Positions 849 to 26,700 of a stretch of DNA of 47,143 nt are shown piece by piece. Position numbers and translations under genes: made by a program. Within the stretch, counting starts at the first letter, position 1; every line of letters begins with the position of its first letter. This DNA is from an uncultured Bacteroidales bacterium (GTDB lineage: Bacteria; Bacteroidota; Bacteroidia; Bacteroidales; P3), in the NCBI GenBank assembly GCA_900315935.1, contig ONBB01000028.1:1-47143 (forward strand). The letters are read 5' to 3'. The notes beneath the pieces were generated by a model that searched no databases, was not told the DNA's origin, and worked only from the letters and a program-made list of their open reading frames with translations.

Positions 849-1700
849 TTATCGTTTCCTTTTTCTGTAAACAGTCAATAGGATAAACGCTACTGCAATT
901 ACTGCAGCCAAACTTATAATAACTCCTTTCCAATTGAAAGAGGCTTCGTTGTCTTCGTAATAGATGATTTGCCGGCGGACATAATAGTGGATGCTGTCCC
1001 TCTCAAAATCCATCGAGAGCCAGTTACCGTATTTGTCGCGGTCGGAGCCGTAGTTGAAGTGCACTGTCCCGTGATGGGCGTATATTCGTTGCTCCTCATC
1101 GCCGTATTTATTGTATACCACCTTGTGGTCGCCGCTAATGCTGTCAACCTGACCTTGCGGGTTGTAATACACTATCCAGCAACCCAGGCGCTCTGCCGAA
1201 AGCAGGCTGCCGTCGGAGCGGTATGTGTGTCTATACAGAGGCTTCTCTTTATCCGAAATCTCCAGTGTGCGACCTTGCTCGTCGTATGCTGTCACCCGTA
1301 AAGTGGTGTCATTCCTGTATATAGAATCAAAGTCGCTGTTGCACATATACAGGAGACGTCCGTCATCAGAGTAGATATAGTGGCAGCCAAATTCAGTGCC
1401 TTCATAATGTATGTTCGTCAACCGTCCCTCTTTATCCCAACCATAGAAAACAGTTTCGCAATAGGGCCATTCCGAGACGTAGGTGTTGTAAATCTTCAAA
1501 CCGTCTCTGCTATATACGTCAGTGGATGTATAGGGGAGTACGTCCTCATCGCCGTAATAATACCATCTTGAAGTCTGTACTATATGCACAGGTCCCCTCA
1601 ACCCTTCGCTTGCTGCAGTGGGGACAAACAGTTCCTGTTGTGCCGCAGCCGTTATTGCCACAGCGCAGAGAAGTATCGTCGTCAAGAGTGCTTTTTTCAT
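849..1700 (-). CDS. Secreted YD-repeat-like protein with C-terminal membrane anchor
   Basis: 283 aa. Residues 1-20 form a signal peptide (MKKALLTTILLCAVAITAAA, then Q). The body is rich in Tyr/Asp/Gly beta-hairpin units such as DKEGRLTNI, SDDGRLLYM, DEQGRTLEI, SDGSLLSAE and NPQGQVDSI, spaced like the YD/RHS-type repeats often seen in Bacteroidota secreted proteins. A hydrophobic helix near residues 258-277 followed by YRKRKR would anchor the C-terminus in the inner membrane, with the repeats facing the periplasm. It directly follows the VWA gene (one base apart), so the two are probably co-transcribed. Specific function unknown. Confidence 0.65.
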   Translation of the reverse strand: MKKALLTTILLCAVAITAAAQQELFVPTAASEGLRGPVHIVQTSRWYYYGDEDVLPYTSTDVYSRDGLKIYNTYVSEWPYCETVFYGWDKEGRLTNIHYEGTEFGCHYIYSDDGRLLYMCNSDFDSIYRNDTTLRVTAYDEQGRTLEISDKEKPLYRHTYRSDGSLLSAERLGCWIVYYNPQGQVDSISGDHKVVYNKYGDEEQRIYAHHGTVHFNYGSDRDKYGNWLSMDFERDSIHYYVRRQIIYYEDNEASFNWKGVIISLAAVIAVAFILLTVYRKRKR

Positions 1701-21203: not shown

Positions 21204-22644
21204 TTGCGCGGATGGTTCACTAGCCATGCACGGCTGCTGACGGCCCTGGCCGTTACGCTGGCCTTCATCGCGGCCGAGGCGTTCGCCCTGTGGTACAGGG
21301 GCAACGCCATGGTGGCCCTGGTGCCGGCGGCGCTGCTGGCGGTGTGGCTGGTGGTGATGCGCCTCGAGACGGCGCTGCTCTGCATGGCCCTGCTGACGCC
21401 CTTCGCCATCAATATGGCCCTGCTGCCGGGCATGGAGCTGTCGATGCCGGTGGAGCCGATGATGATTCTCTTCTCGGCCGTGTTCATCTTCCGCGTGCTG
21501 GCCGAGCGCGACTACGACCGGCGCCTGCTGCGGCACCCCGTAACGCTGCTGCTCACCGCCTCGCTGGCGTGGATGGCCGTCACCTCGGCCACCTCGGAAC
21601 TGCCGTGGGTGTCGGTCAAATACACCCTGGCGCGCCTCTGGTTCGTGCTGCCGTTCTTCTACGCCTCGGCACAGATCTTCCGCCAGCGGCAGCGCATCCG
21701 CCAGTTCTTCTGGGCCTACGCCATCGGGCTGGGCGTGGTGATACTGATTGCCACCTCGAAGACGCTGGGCAACTTCAGCGACCTTCAAACCCTGCACCGC
21801 GTGATGAAGCCCTTCTACAACGACCACACGGCCTACGGCTGCGCCATCGCGCTGATGCTGCCGGTGGCGGTGTACTTCTGTGCTGTAGGGACGGGTGCTT
21901 GCCTTACTCCTCATAGCACTGCTCTGCACGGGCCTCTTCTTCTCCTACTGCCGCGCGGCCTGGATCAGCGTGGTGGGCGCCATCGGGGTCTACATGCTGG
22001 TCAGAATGGGCATGAAGGTGAAATGGATGATACTGCTGTTCGCCCTGGGCGTGGGCGGCTTCTTCGCCTACCAGGGCGACGTGCTCTACCGCCTGGAGAA
22101 AAACACGCAGGACTCCTCCTACACCCTGGCCGACCAGGTGAAGAGCATCTCCAACATCTCGACCGACGCCTCCAACCTCGAGCGCCTCAACCGCTGGGCG
22201 GCGGCGCTGCGCATGTGGGGCGAGCGCCCCGTAACCGGCACCGGCCCGGGCACCTACCAGTTCCTCTACGCCAGCTACCAGCGCTCCTACCAGCTCTCCA
22301 CCATCAGCACCAACGCCGGCGACCTGGGCAACGCGCACAGCGAATACATAGGCCCGCTGACCGAGCAGGGCGTGCCCGGCACACTGCTGGTGGCGGCGCT
22401 CTTCCTGGCCACCTTCGTTACCGGCGTGCGCGTCTACCGCACCGCCAAAGACCCCGCCGTAGGACGCATGGCACTGGCATTTACCCTCTCGCTGCTCACC
22501 TACTACATCCACGGAGTCTTCAACAACTTCCTCGACACCGACAAACTCTCCGTCCCCTTCTGGGCCTTCACGGCCGCCGTTGTCGCCCTCGACGTCTACA
22601 GCGAAAAGTCCGACCCAGAACGAAAAGAAACTTTACCACGGTAA
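21204..22644 (+). pseudogene. O-antigen ligase/polymerase-like protein, frameshifted
   Basis: Membrane protein of the WaaL/Wzy type in two overlapping frames. The first (from TTG 21204) gives about seven membrane segments and runs to GCAIALMLPVAVYFCAVG near 21890. The sequence then continues in the +1 frame as VLALLLIALLCTGLFFSYCRAAW and keeps the ligase motif region (TGTGPGTYQFLY, GNAHSEYIGPLTEQGVPG) to TAA 22644. A single missing G in ACGGGTGCTT at about 21890-21895 would explain the break. It may be a real inactivation, phase variation or a sequencing error. The start TTG follows the Wzz-like stop by four bases, indicating coupled translation. Confidence 0.75.
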
Positions 22645-22661
22645 GAAGGCTCAAAAAAAAA

Positions 22662-22692
22662 TTGGACAGTTTCAAAAAAACACGTATCTTTG
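22662..22692 (+). promoter_or_regulatory. Promoter upstream of the leader ORF and tRNA cluster
   Basis: TTGG at 22662-22665 and TATCTTTG at 22685-22692 have 19 bases between them, matching the Bacteroidetes consensus. The start would be near 22698, about 20 bases before the leader ATG and 170 bases before the first tRNA. Confidence 0.75.
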
Positions 22693-22718
22693 CAACACAG
22701 ACTAGTATAGAAATACAA

Positions 22719-22859
22719 ATGCAACTTACTGATAACAAACAACTTACCCCCCCCCCCCAACACAGAACACATCCCGTAAAGTTTTCCGCCTGCGGGAACA
22801 CTGATATGCCGTCCGACATCCATGTGCCATGTGGATGCCGGACGCGCTTTTTATTATAA
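22719..22859 (+). CDS. Short leader ORF crossing a C12 tract and a terminator hairpin
   Basis: 46 codons, ATG 22719 to TAA 22857-22859. It begins MQLTDNKQLTPPPQHRT and ends CGCRTRFLL. The 12-C run supplies the Pro codons, and the final 16 codons span the hairpin at 22810-22844, with the stop right after the T tract. Ribosomes translating the ORF would thus melt the hairpin. Loss of one C would create a stop at about 22775; gain of one C moves into a frame that meets CGG (22793), TGA (22802) and CGA (22814) codons. This arrangement suggests an attenuation leader but translation is unproven. Confidence 0.4.
   Translation: MQLTDNKQLTPPPQHRTHPVKFSACGNTDMPSDIHVPCGCRTRFLL
22747..22758 (+). repeat. 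Homopolymeric C12 tract
   Basis: Twelve consecutive C in the leader ORF. Such tracts mutate by slippage, so the reading frame of the leader could vary among cells. Sequencing error in its length is also possible. Confidence 0.85.
22810..22856 (+). terminator. Intrinsic terminator or attenuator before the tRNA cluster
   Basis: CGTCCG (22810-22815) pairs with CGGACG (22839-22844); beyond one mismatch CATCCA (22817-22822) pairs with TGGATG-type bases at 22832-22837, leaving a short loop. The tract CGCTTTTTATT follows. The first tRNA begins 12 bases downstream, so either this hairpin attenuates tRNA transcription or the tRNAs use another start (a TATAAT-like sequence lies at about 22855-22860). 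Confidence 0.6.
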
Positions 22860-22867
22860 TGTATCGC

Positions 22868-22962
22868 GCGAGAGTAGTGTAGTGGCAGCACGCAAGACTT
22901 CAGATCTTGATCGGCGTACCTCCAGTGCGCAGGCGCGGGTTCGATTCCCGTCTCTCGCTCCA
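22868..22962 (+). tRNA. Type II tRNA with UCA anticodon (reads UGA); probable glycine acceptor
   Basis: Full cloverleaf. Acceptor GCGAGAG (22868-22874) pairs with CTCTCGC (22952-22958); discriminator U at 22959; encoded CCA 22960-22962. D stem GTGT/GCAC with loop AGTGGCA. Anticodon stem CAAGA/TCTTG around loop CTTCAGA, so the anticodon (22900-22902) is UCA. The variable arm is 25 nt (22910-22934) with a six-pair stem GCGTAC/GTGCGC. T stem GCGGG/CCCGT, loop TTCGATT. It is not tRNA-Sec (7-bp acceptor, 4-bp D stem, U73) nor tRNA-Trp. G1:C72, C2:G71 and U73 match the acceptor-end determinants known for bacterial glycyl-tRNA synthetase; a long variable arm is abnormal for tRNA-Gly. It supplies decoding of UGA in 24547-26610. 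Confidence 0.9.
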
Positions 22963-22977
22963 ACAACAACGGCACAC

Positions 22978-23071
22978 GCGGGCATAGTGTAACGGTAGCA
23001 CGCAGGCTTTCGGGGCCTGATTGCCGGCTTCCAACCCGGTAGAGGTGGTTCGACTCCGCCTGCCCGTGCCA
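22978..23071 (+). tRNA. Type II tRNA with UCG anticodon (reads CGA)
   Basis: Acceptor GCGGGCA (22978-22984) pairs with TGCCCGT (23061-23067), the first pair being G-U; discriminator G 23068; encoded CCA 23069-23071. D stem GTGT/GCAC. Anticodon stem CAGGC/GCCTG, loop TTTCGGG, anticodon UCG at 23010-23012. The variable arm is 24 nt (23020-23043) with stem TGCCGG/CCGGTA. T stem GGTGG/CCGCC. Normal tRNA-Arg has a short variable loop, so this is not a standard arginine tRNA. G73 plus a long arm would suit SerRS; C35 is also shared with glycine tRNAs. The amino acid is undetermined. Confidence 0.85.
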
Positions 23072-23087
23072 AGCACAATCCGCACAC

Positions 23088-23181
23088 GCGGGCATAGTGT
23101 AACGGTAGCACACAGGCTTCCGGGGCCTGATTGCCGGCTTCCAACCCGGCAGAGGCGGTTCGACTCCGCCTGCCCGTGCCA
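23088..23181 (+). tRNA. Type II tRNA with CCG anticodon (reads CGG)
   Basis: Near-identical to the tRNA at 22978: same acceptor and D arms, anticodon loop TTCCGGG with anticodon CCG at 23120-23122, variable arm 23130-23153, T stem GGCGG/CCGCC, discriminator G and encoded CCA 23179-23181. The few differences include compensated or wobble changes in the T and variable stems (T to C restoring G-C pairs), which argues for selection on structure. The 16-base spacer before it ends in GCACAC, as does that before its sister copy. CGG encodes the glycine position of the G-T-S motif of the recoded gene (26089). The protein gene at 23185 begins three bases after the CCA. Confidence 0.85.
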
Positions 23182-23184
23182 TCA

Positions 23185-24189
23185 ATGGACACTCCGGCCA
23201 TACACCACCAGCAGCCCAACCCTCGAGACAACTTCAAGGGCTGGCGCGACCCGGCCTACAACGACCTACGCCGCATCTTCTCCAAAAGCTACCTACAAAA
23301 GGTGCTCACCCACAGCTCTTTCTACGAGACCAAGGGCAAGGGCAACAGCCGCGACATCTTCGCCGGCATGTTCGTCTTCAAGGGGCAGGTGGCAGAACTC
23401 CTACACCGCCATGTACCCGAGGACGGCACTCGACTCCAGCACATCCTCGGCAACCTCTTCCGTCAGGAGCGGCTCCTCCGACTCTTCGACCAGTGGAAGC
23501 TCCGCCACTTCGTCCGCGCGGGTCAGAACTTCGACATCGACGCTCACCGCCACATCTTTGTCTACGCCATCTTCGGCTACGTCTCCACCCTCGACGAGCC
23601 CCTGCGCAACTGGTTCATCACCCGATATATCCTCAACAACGAGGCCGAGCACCTCTTCGCCCACCGACCATCCAACCGCAACCTCCTCCAGCAGGCCGAC
23701 GCCATGGTGCGCCAGACCGACGGCCGCCGACTGCAGCTCGAGATGGAGATTCTCGACGACGGGCTACACAAGGCCAAGGCCGTCCTCTCCGACGGCACAA
23801 TCCTCTGCGAGGCCACCAGCAAAAGCTGGCGCTACGCCCGCACCAAGGTGGTGAAACTGGCCCTCAACATGCTGGCCACACCCTTCCGCCAACAGCTGCT
23901 CTCCAACCCCGACTACCAGGCACGTGTGCTGGCACGCGAGGAGGAGAAAGTTGCCCAGCGCAAGGCCGACGTCGAACAGCGCGAAGCCGCCAAGGAGGCC
24001 CTGCGCCTCAAGAAACGCGAGGAACGCCGCCAGCAGGCGCGCCTAGCCGACGCCAAACGCCGCAAAAGCCAAGCCGAGGCCAAGAAGCGCAAAGCCGAGA
24101 ACGCCGCACGCGCCGCCGCCAAGGCCGCCAAGGAGGCTCGCCCCATGAGCGCCAAGAAACGCCGCCACCTCGAAGACAAGAAGAAGTAA
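23185..24189 (+). CDS. Catalytically dead RNase III-fold protein with dsRBD-like and basic tail
   Basis: 334 aa; ATG 23185 chosen because upstream in-frame codons are tRNA sequence. Residues about 28-160 follow the RNase III domain (YLQKVLTHSSFYE ... HIFVYAIFGYVSTLDE), but the signature NERLEFLGD reads NSRDIFAGM and the second motif D-x-x-E-A reads HIFVYA, so all four catalytic acidic residues are gone. Residues about 170-235 resemble a dsRNA-binding domain (LLQQADAMVR ... CEATSKSWRYARTKVVKLAL). The last 90 residues are a Lys/Arg/Ala-rich helical tail ending SAKKRRHLEDKKK. It would bind structured RNA without cutting it. Location directly after the three odd tRNAs suggests binding of these tRNAs or of the RNA at 24245. 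A family common in the lineage and unrelated to recoding is the alternative. Confidence 0.7.
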   Translation: MDTPAIHHQQPNPRDNFKGWRDPAYNDLRRIFSKSYLQKVLTHSSFYETKGKGNSRDIFAGMFVFKGQVAELLHRHVPEDGTRLQHILGNLFRQERLLRLFDQWKLRHFVRAGQNFDIDAHRHIFVYAIFGYVSTLDEPLRNWFITRYILNNEAEHLFAHRPSNRNLLQQADAMVRQTDGRRLQLEMEILDDGLHKAKAVLSDGTILCEATSKSWRYARTKVVKLALNMLATPFRQQLLSNPDYQARVLAREEEKVAQRKADVEQREAAKEALRLKKREERRQQARLADAKRRKSQAEAKKRKAENAARAAAKAAKEARPMSAKKRRHLEDKKK

Positions 24190-24208
24190 GTTGAAATCAA
24201 AAAAAAAT

Positions 24209-24239
24209 TTTGCCATTCCAAAAAAAGTTCGTAATTTTG
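24209..24239 (+). promoter_or_regulatory. Consensus Bacteroidetes promoter of the recoded gene
   Basis: TTTG at 24209-24212 and TAATTTTG at 24232-24239, exactly 19 bases apart, a perfect consensus match. Transcription would start near 24246, leaving a 300-base leader before the ATG at 24547. Confidence 0.85.
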
Positions 24240-24244
24240 CACCG

Positions 24245-24546
24245 TCGTTTAACCGAGCCAATCCTTTTTCCGCGAGCACCGGAGAAGGCCACCCGCGGGG
24301 GTAGCGCTTGTCTGCGTTCACAGCCCGCTGCGGTGGGAGAGGAACAGCCGGGAGCGCCGCGTGCAGGGGCGGGGAATAGAAAGTGTGCTGCATTATGCTG
24401 CATAGGGATATGCAGGCAAGACAGCATGGCTGCCGCCCGAAGACAGGCACAAAAAACTTGGCGACGCTCCGCCATAGGCAATGTTCTTGACCCTTGGAAA
24501 GCGCTCCATCGGAAGGACCACGCTCCTAAAAACACAGACCACGGAC
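24245..24546 (+). ncRNA. GC-rich structured leader or noncoding RNA, unassigned
   Basis: No convincing ORF. Possible helices include CCGCG (24270 region) with CGCGG before 24300; GCTTGTCT (about 24305-24312) with AGACAGGC (about 24441-24448, eight pairs, one G-U); and GGAGCG-C-CGC (about 24351-24360) with GCG-A-CGCTCC (about 24462-24471, nine pairs and one mismatch). These nest into one long-range fold of about 230 nt. I do not recognise RNase P RNA, tmRNA, SRP RNA or a known riboswitch. No terminator precedes the downstream ATG, so it may be the 5' leader of the recoded gene, or a separately processed RNA. Confidence 0.5.
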
Positions 24547-26610
24547 ATGAAGAAACGCTGAACCCACCACTGACCCGAAAGAAAAATCACGGCCCTCGCC
24601 GTCATCGCCCTCATAGGCATCGCACTGGTGCCGGGATGTGAAAAAGCCGAACTCGACACCGCCGGAACCGACACCATCGTCACCGACACCGTCCCCTCTA
24701 TAATTATGGACACCGTCGCGCCGGACATCCGCGTCGTGTGCGCCTCTTTCGACGTCACCTGGTGAAAGCTGCTCCTGGTGGACAGCAACCAGCTCCTCAT
24801 CGGCGGCGACCTGGCCGCCACCTGGAGCGACAACAGCGACACCGCCTGCTCCGTACTCCTTTCCGTCAACGACCAGACCGTCGCCTCCGGCGACTCCCTC
24901 CTCCAGGCCGGCACCCTCACGCTCCGCGTCGCCGACACCGCCGGCAACACACAGACGGCTCAGATCGAACTCACCGCCGACAACACTCCCATCTTCGGCC
25001 TCGAGTCCCTCAACGCACTCTTCATGCAGGTCGACCAGCCCGTGAACCTCCTCTCCGCCATCACCCTCGGAAGGGGCGTTACCCTCGTCAACGTGATACT
25101 CGAGATGGGCGGCGAGCGCAAGGTATTCGCCGCCCCCTCCAACTTCGTGCCTCCAATACCCGGCACCTGCAGGCTGCTCTTCACAGTCAGCTGAAGTCAG
25201 GACTGACGTAGTGAAATACCGTCAACTAATCTCACTATCAGACCACTCAATCATACATCTTTTCAGCCTACTAATATACAGCCAGCTTCTATTTTGCCAA
25301 TTATCAATCAAGTGACAAATGGAGATATAAATGCATACAATCACATAAATCATCTAAAAATCGCTGAAGCTACTAGGATGAGAGATATGATGTGGACATA
25401 CTGAGCATGAAATTATACTCCAGAGCAATATCAGACTTATATGTCTAGACTAAATGTGGGTATGATATGAGAGTATCCTACATGATATAATAACTTTACT
25501 TTTCTTGGATGAAGTTCTACTGACTCCCCAACAACCCATGCACATAATTGCTGGGGGCCTGTAAATACATTGATAAACCATGCAAATTTTTATGTTTTAA
25601 GAAAAAGCTATCGATTCGATGTTTTATTATCTTTTTGTCAATGAAATCAAAGCAGTGATAATCAGTGAAAAATAAATATTTTTTGATGCTCTATGTGAGC
25701 ATCTGTTAATAGAGATCAATATGATACTCGAGAGTTTACAGATGAAACTTTATGCGAAAGTTTAGATAATTTTATACTATTTCAATCATGATCGAATGTA
25801 GACTGATCAAAAAGAAAAATTTGTCATGAAAGTATCAATCCATTACCTGATACCAATTCTCTTTATTGACCAGCATCTCATGCAAACTGAAGTAGTGATA
25901 ATGCATCAAATTTGAGACATATGATAGTCACTGTATGAACAAACGCATCATGAAATGCTAATGTAACTACATGATACTCATGATCAAAATTCCCTGTATG
26001 ATTTCATAATGATGTACTCTTTGCATGACGTACTTTCCCTTTCCACTGAGCATCATGATGAACAATCACTGCCGAAACTAACAACTACCGGACATCTTAC
26101 ACAAATTTTGTAAACGTAGCGATGACATCTCTACTATTCCAACTAAGTGCTGATGTACTTAATGTAGATACTCTACTCAATAGAATCAGAAATACTTCAC
26201 TTACTGATCATATTACCTATGGATCTCAGACTCAGGCTCTACACCTCATCAACCCCGCAGGCTACATCAAGGCCTACCTCATGCCCAACGCCCTGCCCGC
26301 CCACATCAACGCCGGCACCCTGAACGACCCGGGACAAACCCTCCCGCTCAACAAAGGCTTCTACAAGGGCGTCCTCTTCGACATCCCGGGCGCCGAGGTG
26401 AAAATCGGCGGACAGTGGATACCCTACAACTCCGCCAACCGCTATCAGATCATCGCCCAGAACCCCTTGAACCTTGAGTGGAGGCTCAACGGCCAGCTCC
26501 TCAAGAAACTCGGCAAGAAAGGCCAGACCGTCAGCGGAACCCTCATCGTCGTCGACGACCAGTGCAACGGCCTCTCCATCACCAAGCCCTTCTCCATACA
26601 AGTCAACTAA
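24547..26610 (+). CDS. UGA-recoded lipoprotein with divergent subtilisin-like domain
   Basis: One frame of 688 codons with 27 internal TGA (24559, 24571, 24763, then 24 between 25192 and 26059) and no TAA/TAG until 26608. With UGA as Gly: a signal with lipobox L-V-P-G-C (Cys31); an Ig-like domain (about 65-150); an AT-rich core (about 216-560); a beta-rich C-terminal domain to residue 687. Core motifs follow subtilisin order: THAHNCWG (His331, H-x5-G as in HGTxVAG), INIFGCSMG, FQSGSN (Asn417, oxyanion-hole position), IVTVG, and xTSYTNF (Ser517), where x is CGG. The catalytic Asp is not obvious (VGMI-UGA-EY). The core has 4 GGN against 24 TGA, and Arg is mostly AGA. Ends and flanks are GC-rich with GGC and CGC. 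A pseudogene is unlikely because only one stop type occurs. Activity is unproven. Confidence 0.85.
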
Positions 26611-26643
26611 TCCCGCCGCACCCATACAAAGCACCCAAACAGC

Positions 26644-26684
26644 GATGTCCCCATACATATGCTATGGGGACATCCGTATTTTTA
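26644..26684 (+). terminator. Intrinsic terminator after the recoded gene
   Basis: GATGTCCCCAT (26644-26654) pairs perfectly with ATGGGGACATC (26664-26674), nine-base loop, followed by CGTATTTTTATA. It lies 34 bases after the TAA stop and also separates the convergent ClC gene. Confidence 0.9.
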
Positions 26685-26700
26685 TAAGCCAATGGAGAAA

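Follow-up and report, generated by a model that had tools for sequence, protein, structure and literature searches.

A candidate mobile module for reading UGA as glycine in one gene of a standard-code Bacteroidales chromosome

The contig ONBB01000028.1 of an uncultured Bacteroidales bacterium (assembly GCA_900315935.1), analyzed here over its entire length of 47,143 nucleotides and referred to as the window, carries a gene with 27 in-frame UGA codons in a chromosome where UGA is otherwise a regular stop. Upstream of this gene lie three tandem transfer RNAs (tRNAs) with long variable arms, a gene for an RNase III-like protein that we name RncX, and a conserved leader RNA. We propose that these elements form a dedicated module that decodes the gene with UGA as glycine, and estimate the probability of this reading at roughly 0.6. 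In a fuller version, which we put forward tentatively and would not be surprised to see fail, the module would constitute an mRNA-selective second genetic code within one cell: a mobile unit combining a conserved leader on the messenger RNA (mRNA) with an RNase III that has lost its activity and with long-arm tRNAs (UGA as Gly, CGA and CGG as Trp), all other mRNAs being read in the standard way. The UGA-rich gene had been pointed out by a sequence-only reading of this DNA, which overlooked the tRNA cassette, the leader RNA, the RNase III-like gene with its probable loss of catalysis, the involvement of CGA/CGG and the recurrence in other families. The genome carrying the window (G000; 2.29 Mb in 31 contigs, 96.6% complete, the window being its contig C23) was compared with others, among them G001, G004, G012, G514 and G798; L-numbers denote loci. 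The promoter motif and the genes present likewise point to Bacteroidota, probably Bacteroidales.

The gene itself comprises the following features:

24547..26610, forward strand: candidate UGA-recoded lipoprotein-type gene; 688 codons with 27 UGA, 2 CGA and 1 CGG
24559..24573, forward strand: UGA codons 5 and 9, between the start codon and the lipoprotein-type signal peptide
25192..26241, forward strand: AT-rich core of the gene; 350 codons, 33.7% guanine plus cytosine (GC), 24 UGA against 5 GGN codons

As the sequence-only reading had stated, a single frame runs from ATG 24547 to TAA 26610 through 27 TGA and no TAA or TAG before the final one; the TGA are at codons 5, 9, 73, 216, 220 and 286 through to 505. 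An alternative in-frame ATG lies upstream at 24481. The earlier tally of 24 TGA in the core was reproduced, with five GGN codons where four had been given. The absence of TAA and TAG from the core is not expected by chance, since none of 2000 dinucleotide shuffles was free of both (mean 14.4, minimum 4). GC content at the three codon positions of the core (36/44/21%) is coding-like, and its five remaining frames hold 8-22 TAA/TAG apiece, so that the core is not the antisense strand of a normal gene. The parts of the gene flanking the core are GC-rich (62.9% and 59.3%). Their openness is weak proof, because long TAA/TAG-free frames containing TGA are common elsewhere in the genome: 10 of the 15 top-listed ones exceed 1000 codons, with 5-26 TGA, and are probably antisense to genes. 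The core is exceptional within 847 kb of host sequence (the window and 40 stretches of the 2.29-Mb genome), with a GC fraction of 0.29-0.34 and up to 17 TGA per 150 codons, whereas weaker windows in that sample have 0.37-0.45 and at most 11 TGA. Two further stretches of G000, L170 14119-14658 and L167 2583-3332, are fairly AT-rich and free of TAA and TAG, with 7-11 TGA per 150 codons; they may be antisense.

Because TGA codons 5, 9 and 73 fall within the GC-rich 5' portion of the gene, the UGA reading extends beyond the AT-rich core. A signal of lipoprotein type (ITALAVIALIGIALVPGC), recognized by eye, begins right after codon 9, and there is no ATG, GTG or TTG between this codon and the signal. 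Thus, synthesis of the signal requires that both UGA codons be read, whether translation starts at 24547 or at 24481. The gene also holds three CGA/CGG codons, at positions 356, 395 and 515.

The tRNA cassette is located 1.4-1.7 kb upstream of the UGA gene (22868-23181) and was identified with ARAGORN and Rfam:

22685..22692, forward strand: promoter -7-like motif TATCTTTG of the Bacteroidota type before the tRNA cassette, from the sequence
22747..22758, forward strand: run of 12 C between the promoter motif and tRNA 1; a similar run is present in G001 (L123 9291-9303)
22868..22962, forward strand: tRNA 1, anticodon UCA (UGA), long variable arm; ARAGORN, Rfam RF00005 60.9 bits
22978..23071, forward strand: tRNA 2, anticodon UCG (CGA/CGG), long variable arm; ARAGORN, RF00005 48.6 bits
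23088..23181, forward strand: tRNA 3, anticodon CCG (CGG), long variable arm; ARAGORN, RF00005 50.2 bits

The variable regions span 24-25 nt, and the acceptor and T arms have 7 and 5 base pairs (7/5). What we take to be the Bacteroidota -7 consensus was applied both to the motif at 22685..22692 and to the one at 24232..24239 ahead of the leader. Over the promoter region (22653-22758) the window shares 72% identity with the beginning of the corresponding slot in the closest relative, G001, and slippage in the C tract could act as a switch. According to PMC8629427, the Absconditabacteria code has UGA as Gly and CGA and CGG as Trp; the three anticodons therefore cover exactly the codons that separate this code from the standard one. 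The same paper assigns a tRNA-UCA to Gly if it has G1:C72, C2:G71, G3:C70 and U73, and a CGA/CGG tRNA provisionally to Trp if it has G73 and a base other than A at position 20, backed by A/G1:U72. tRNA 1 shows all four Gly elements, and its nearest host tRNA is tRNA-Gly(CCC). tRNAs 2 and 3 have G1:U72 and G73, with N20 read by eye as U, in agreement with the provisional Trp rule. Judging from these identity elements, tRNAs 2 and 3 probably insert Trp at CGA/CGG. The cassette was not found in 98 relatives, where no match to the 314-base query exceeded 51 bases at E <= 0.001.

RncX and the leader fill the space between the cassette and the UGA gene:

23185..24189, forward strand: RncX, RNase III-like, 334 aa; begins 3 nt past tRNA 3
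24232..24239, forward strand: promoter -7-like motif TAATTTTG ahead of the leader, from the sequence; a similar motif precedes the G514 leader
24238..24546, forward strand: conserved leader RNA immediately preceding the UGA gene; aligns with the G514 leader

RncX can be aligned with canonical RNase III across the catalytic domain and matches PF14622 (RNase III-like), although under the curated cut-off, as do its two homologues described below (E = 1.7e-4 for RncX of the window, 1.1e-6 and 3e-8). It differs from RNase III (rnc) in its genetic link to the tRNAs, in a long basic C-terminal tail, which in all three proteins ends in KKRRHLEDKKK or close to it, and in the NERLEFLGDA signature. This signature is replaced in each of the three (NSRDIFAGMF, NGRLVFEGMF, NSRFVFLGMY), including its Glu and Asp residues, and the acid of the ALEA motif is likewise replaced in all of them; these acidic residues have catalytic roles in RNase III. 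Given this replacement in all three, RncX has probably lost nuclease activity.

The leaders of G000 and G514 align over 54 nt at 76% identity (blastn, E = 2e-6) and occupy the same place in both loci. The leader pattern was found in these two copies and in none of the other loci compared, and against Rfam the leader gave chance-level matches alone, with no family assigned. RNAalifold on the two sequences yielded 48 pairs, 14 of them changed on both sides, a result that none of 500 shuffles equaled, and slid alignments paired in only 31-44% of cells.

The module is not confined to the window. RncX was absent from 60 relatives, and 393 genomes of the order contained two further strong homologues, in G514 (48% identity) and G798 (39%), both from other families. 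A profile search over a largely identical set returned scores above 500 bits in G000, G514 and G798 alone and five weak matches at 19-24 bits, four of which carry the canonical RNase III signature at their locus and one of which does not. A corrected tRNA pattern likewise matched the window, G514 and G798. Neither this pattern nor RncX nor the leader had a match in viral contigs. In both G514 and G798, RncX lies downstream of long-arm UCG and UCA tRNAs. Despite the divergence, the Gly identity elements are present in 3/3 UCA tRNAs, and G73 with A/G1:U72 in 4/4 UCG/CCG tRNAs across the three loci; N20 was read as U in these four, less surely in G798, where the D loop is one base longer. All seven tRNAs have UCCA in the variable arm, extended in four to UUCCAAC.

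In G514, RncX is followed by the leader and the leader directly by a 245-codon open reading frame (ORF) in which codons 4, 27 and 235 are UGA and codon 192 is CGA. Past codon 27 comes a hydrophobic segment that resembles a signal (by eye), so that in both loci having a leader and a gene UGA stands ahead of the signal-like segment (codons 5 and 9 in G000, 4 and 27 in G514). No known family was convincingly matched, the best Pfam match of P0006 of G514 being DivIC (E = 0.0045, under the cut-off). Other features were also seen at this locus. A third tRNA-like copy (L183 417-508), not called by ARAGORN, lies between the UCG and UCA tRNAs and shares their CTTCCAAC arm loop but has a degraded T arm. 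A second short frame (L183 2833-4124) has UGA at codons 8 and 25, stops shortly before a DDE transposase gene and was perhaps cut by it. Ahead of the module, an imperfect palindrome with 20-nt arms 73 nt apart (L183 150-262) resembles an integron attC site. The region L183 145-269 is 73% similar to Myroides plasmids, and mobility of the G514 module as a cassette is possible.

In the window, the cargo sits in a slot (22609-26700) that varies across the genus and is bounded by a Wzy-like gene (by eye) and a CLC gene. The CLC gene (Pfam) was found in 58 of 59 genus genomes, G000 counted, and a Wzz-like gene (by eye) in 57 of 59, with a distance between the two of ~1.5 to 9 kb across the compared genomes; in G009, G015 and G024 the slot is empty (~1.5 kb from Wzz to CLC). 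G001 is 92-98% identical to the window on both sides of the slot and carries different cargo. In 16 slots from relatives, ARAGORN found no tRNA, and no island sequence was detected beyond the promoter region. Of the three slots with listed ORFs, those of G001 and G004 contain lipoprotein-like ORFs (by eye), five of which were tested and had no Pfam match, and that of G012 contains other genes. A phage or plasmid context is not apparent: P0001 and P0003 had no match in phages and plasmids, and the slot lies between two genus-conserved genes. A frameshift near 21.89 kb interrupts the adjoining Wzy/O-antigen-ligase-like gene (by eye, 21204-22644), which at that point is ~114 bp shorter than the intact 509-aa gene of G001.

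Elsewhere in the host genome UGA is a regular stop, which supports the earlier claim of one gene with UGA as sense inside an otherwise standard-code chromosome. Of 500 genes called in the 847 kb, 148 end in UGA (a simple codon-usage caller, whose set includes two pieces of the UGA gene and one probable false call in the window), and release factor 2 (RF2) is present (442 bits). The genome-wide loss of the UGA stop that marks genetic code 25 is thus not found. The host sets of tRNA-Gly (GCC, TCC, CCC) and tRNA-Arg (ACG, CCG, CCT, TCT) are both ordinary, and CGA and CGG occur at 35 and 51 per 10,000 codons.

As to the residue inserted at UGA, we compared the core with 356 host proteins that are 250 aa or longer, leaving out genes starting in 24.0-26.7 kb. 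Without UGA as Gly the core would contain 5 Gly in 350 residues (1.4%), a level as low as that of a single host protein, and with it 8.3%, against a host median of 7.4%. Reading UGA as serine would give 16.6% Ser (host maximum 14.0%), and reading it as tryptophan 7.4% Trp (host maximum 6.1%). The glycine assignment of the sequence-only reading thus agrees with the Gly level of the core and with the Gly identity of tRNA-UCA, and found no backing in a neighbour-context test. On present evidence, glycine appears to be the best residue for UGA. A Dirichlet composition likelihood, which placed Asn, Ser and Thr first and Gly 16th, was badly posed, as it favours residues that are already common, and was not used.

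From these observations we infer the following scheme. A mobile second-code module would sit in the cargo slot of a chromosome that is otherwise read in the standard code. Its first promoter would drive the three long-arm tRNAs (UCA, charged with Gly for UGA; UCG and CCG, probably with Trp for CGA/CGG) and RncX, and a second would produce an mRNA with the conserved structured leader followed by a secreted protein in which UGA is sense. The UGA codons ahead of the signal peptide would act as a gate, such that without the tRNAs no product is made. Leader and RncX may help to recruit the dedicated tRNAs to the mRNA, much as the selenocysteine insertion sequence (SECIS) and SelB do for selenocysteine, and ordinary UGA stops would be spared. 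We favour an mRNA-selective device because 27 sites need efficient decoding while UGA is a common stop.

Several observations weigh against this scheme. With RF2 present and UGA common as a stop, 27 read-throughs demand very efficient decoding; even at 90% per site, only ~6% full product would result. The UCG and CCG tRNAs have C2:G71, like tRNA-Gly, whereas host tRNA-Trp has G2:C71. The host protein sample is nearly all GC-rich, with 2 of 356 at a GC fraction below 0.45, and the neighbour-context test on the 24 core sites ranks Asn first and Gly eighth; this test was set aside, since true Gly was recovered in only 15 of 200 calibration trials. Nor did any homologue of the UGA gene turn up with which the residue could have been tested site by site. 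The leader structure rests on, and was derived from, two sequences, each of which folds alone no better than shuffles. Further, the G514 ORF has only 3 UGA. In G798 the leader was not matched, the module was not seen to be accompanied by a UGA gene, and RncX is frameshifted near the start; given these three points, the G798 copy may be decayed. The G798 frame is lost at a run of A (L184 ~1590-1665, minus strand), which may reflect an error, decay or a programmed shift.

The selectivity step could fail while a simpler suppressor model holds. In that case, the tRNAs alone would suppress UGA (and CGA/CGG) throughout the cell, at a low or switched level, and leader and RncX would merely regulate or process transcripts; the gene would be made weakly, or with the cassette on, for instance through C-tract slippage. 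This keeps the decoding and rejects selectivity alone. The 7/5 arms of the tRNAs, which ordinary EF-Tu could carry, and the 12-C tract ahead of the cassette agree with it, and read-through may be survivable, as the next UAA/UAG follows a UGA stop at a median of 26 codons. Cell-wide suppression would nevertheless be costly where UGA ends 148 of 500 genes and CGA and CGG together make up 86 per 10,000 codons, and some other function would have to be found for the conserved leader and for the UCCA arm loop shared by 7/7 tRNAs. We consider this explanation unlikely. Less likely still is that the UCG and CCG tRNAs, and perhaps UCA, are charged with serine, giving CGA/CGG as Ser and UGA as Gly or Ser, which is compatible with both the module and the suppressor. 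Seryl-tRNA synthetase recognizes the long arm and G73 (PMC7609411), and 4/4 UCG/CCG tRNAs have both; this counts against a firm Trp assignment and makes serine for CGA/CGG possible. Against it, the UCA tRNAs have U73, serine at UGA would exceed the host maximum in the core, and all four Ser tRNAs of the host carry G1:C72 and G2:C71, whereas the cassette-type UCG/CCG tRNAs have A/G1:U72 and C2:G71.

The tRNAs could instead be a weapon which, once induced (e.g. by phage), halts the cell through stop read-through and Arg miscoding under the control of RncX. Such a role would suit a rare module that is absent from the relatives searched and lies in a variable slot, in a host with widespread UGA stops. 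It sits poorly with a 27-UGA gene with a shared leader adjoining the tRNAs and with UGA ahead of a signal-like segment in two loci, and we hold it to be improbable. An assembly chimera, in which 1 kb of Absconditabacteria or Gracilibacteria DNA was misjoined, would account for the abrupt GC drop in the core and its UGA use like that of code 25 organisms, in an assembly of 31 contigs. It is highly improbable in view of a frame that stays open across both joins, UGA codons 5, 9 and 73 in the GC-rich part, tRNAs, RncX and leader that lie outside the core and recur elsewhere, and flanks 92-98% identical to G001. We give practically no credence to tRNA 1 being selC and the gene a selenoprotein, although ARAGORN labels tRNA 1 as SeC. 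The protein would contain 27 UGA, the sister tRNAs read UCG and CCG, and tRNA 1 has 7+5 bp and U73 as opposed to the 13-bp acceptor domain and G73 described for tRNA-Sec in PMC7609411.

The proposed module shares features with several known systems. Absconditabacteria (SR1), as described in PMC8629427, have a tRNA-UCA with Gly identity, UCG/CCG tRNAs of provisional Trp type and UGA-rich, AT-rich coding stretches. Here, a single gene is affected, UGA stops and RF2 are kept, the variable arms are long, and a dedicated leader RNA and RncX are present. Code-switching phages (PMC10746230) resemble the module in placing a stop-codon tRNA beside the genes needing it in a standard-code host; the module differs in its chromosomal slot, its inclusion of sense codons and its secreted protein in place of late genes. 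No release factor or synthetase of its own was seen in the island. Like selenocysteine insertion, the module has a long-arm UCA tRNA, an RNA element on the mRNA and a proposed special delivery. The selenocysteine machinery includes selC, SelB and SECIS, whereas here we find a 7/5 tRNA with U73, many UGA per gene, a 5' leader and an RNase III-like protein instead of SelB. Some allo-tRNAs have 9/3 arms. Allo-tRNAs and selC*-type tRNA-Cys (PMC7609411) are likewise unusual long-arm tRNAs found computationally, some with UCA; the selC* type has 8/4 arms, in contrast to the 7/5 arms and Gly/Trp-type ends of the cassette. Among the open-access matches listed (subscription papers and preprints being outside this scope), there was no chromosomal module of this kind, no UGA as Gly outside Absconditabacteria and Gracilibacteria, and no long-arm tRNA with Gly/Trp-type ends.

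A genetic code is generally regarded as belonging to a whole cell, an organelle or an infecting phage. If the scheme is true, codes can be local and move between species, which would offer a route for the onset of code change and, for orthogonal translation, a blueprint from nature. Should the tRNAs alone matter, UGA would still be decoded as Gly outside the Absconditabacteria/Gracilibacteria lineage.

Searches of the 98 relatives, 394 other genomes of the phylum, phages, plasmids and viral contigs brought up no homologue of the UGA gene; a peptide-pattern scan of wider genome contigs matched ten stretches, none of them a relative. The sequence-only reading had recognized subtilisin-type (S8) motifs under UGA as Gly, which we too accepted by eye at first, and this identity was not borne out: there was no Pfam or PDB match, and profile tests stayed at shuffle level. 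Our own S8 hidden Markov model scored the product within shuffles, a glocal profile gave z 0.15 against z 57 for a true S8 control (itself a profile member), and hhalign gave E = 0.27 against 0.09-0.66 for ten shuffles. The glocal and hhalign tests were run without L088, L089 and L093, which aligned poorly; L069 and L077 lacked the motif used for picking the S8 frame. A single-sequence structure prediction of the core reached a predicted local distance difference test (pLDDT) score of 30 and was not used. The product has a lipoprotein-type N-terminus and weak, below-threshold matches to immunoglobulin (Ig)-like domains.

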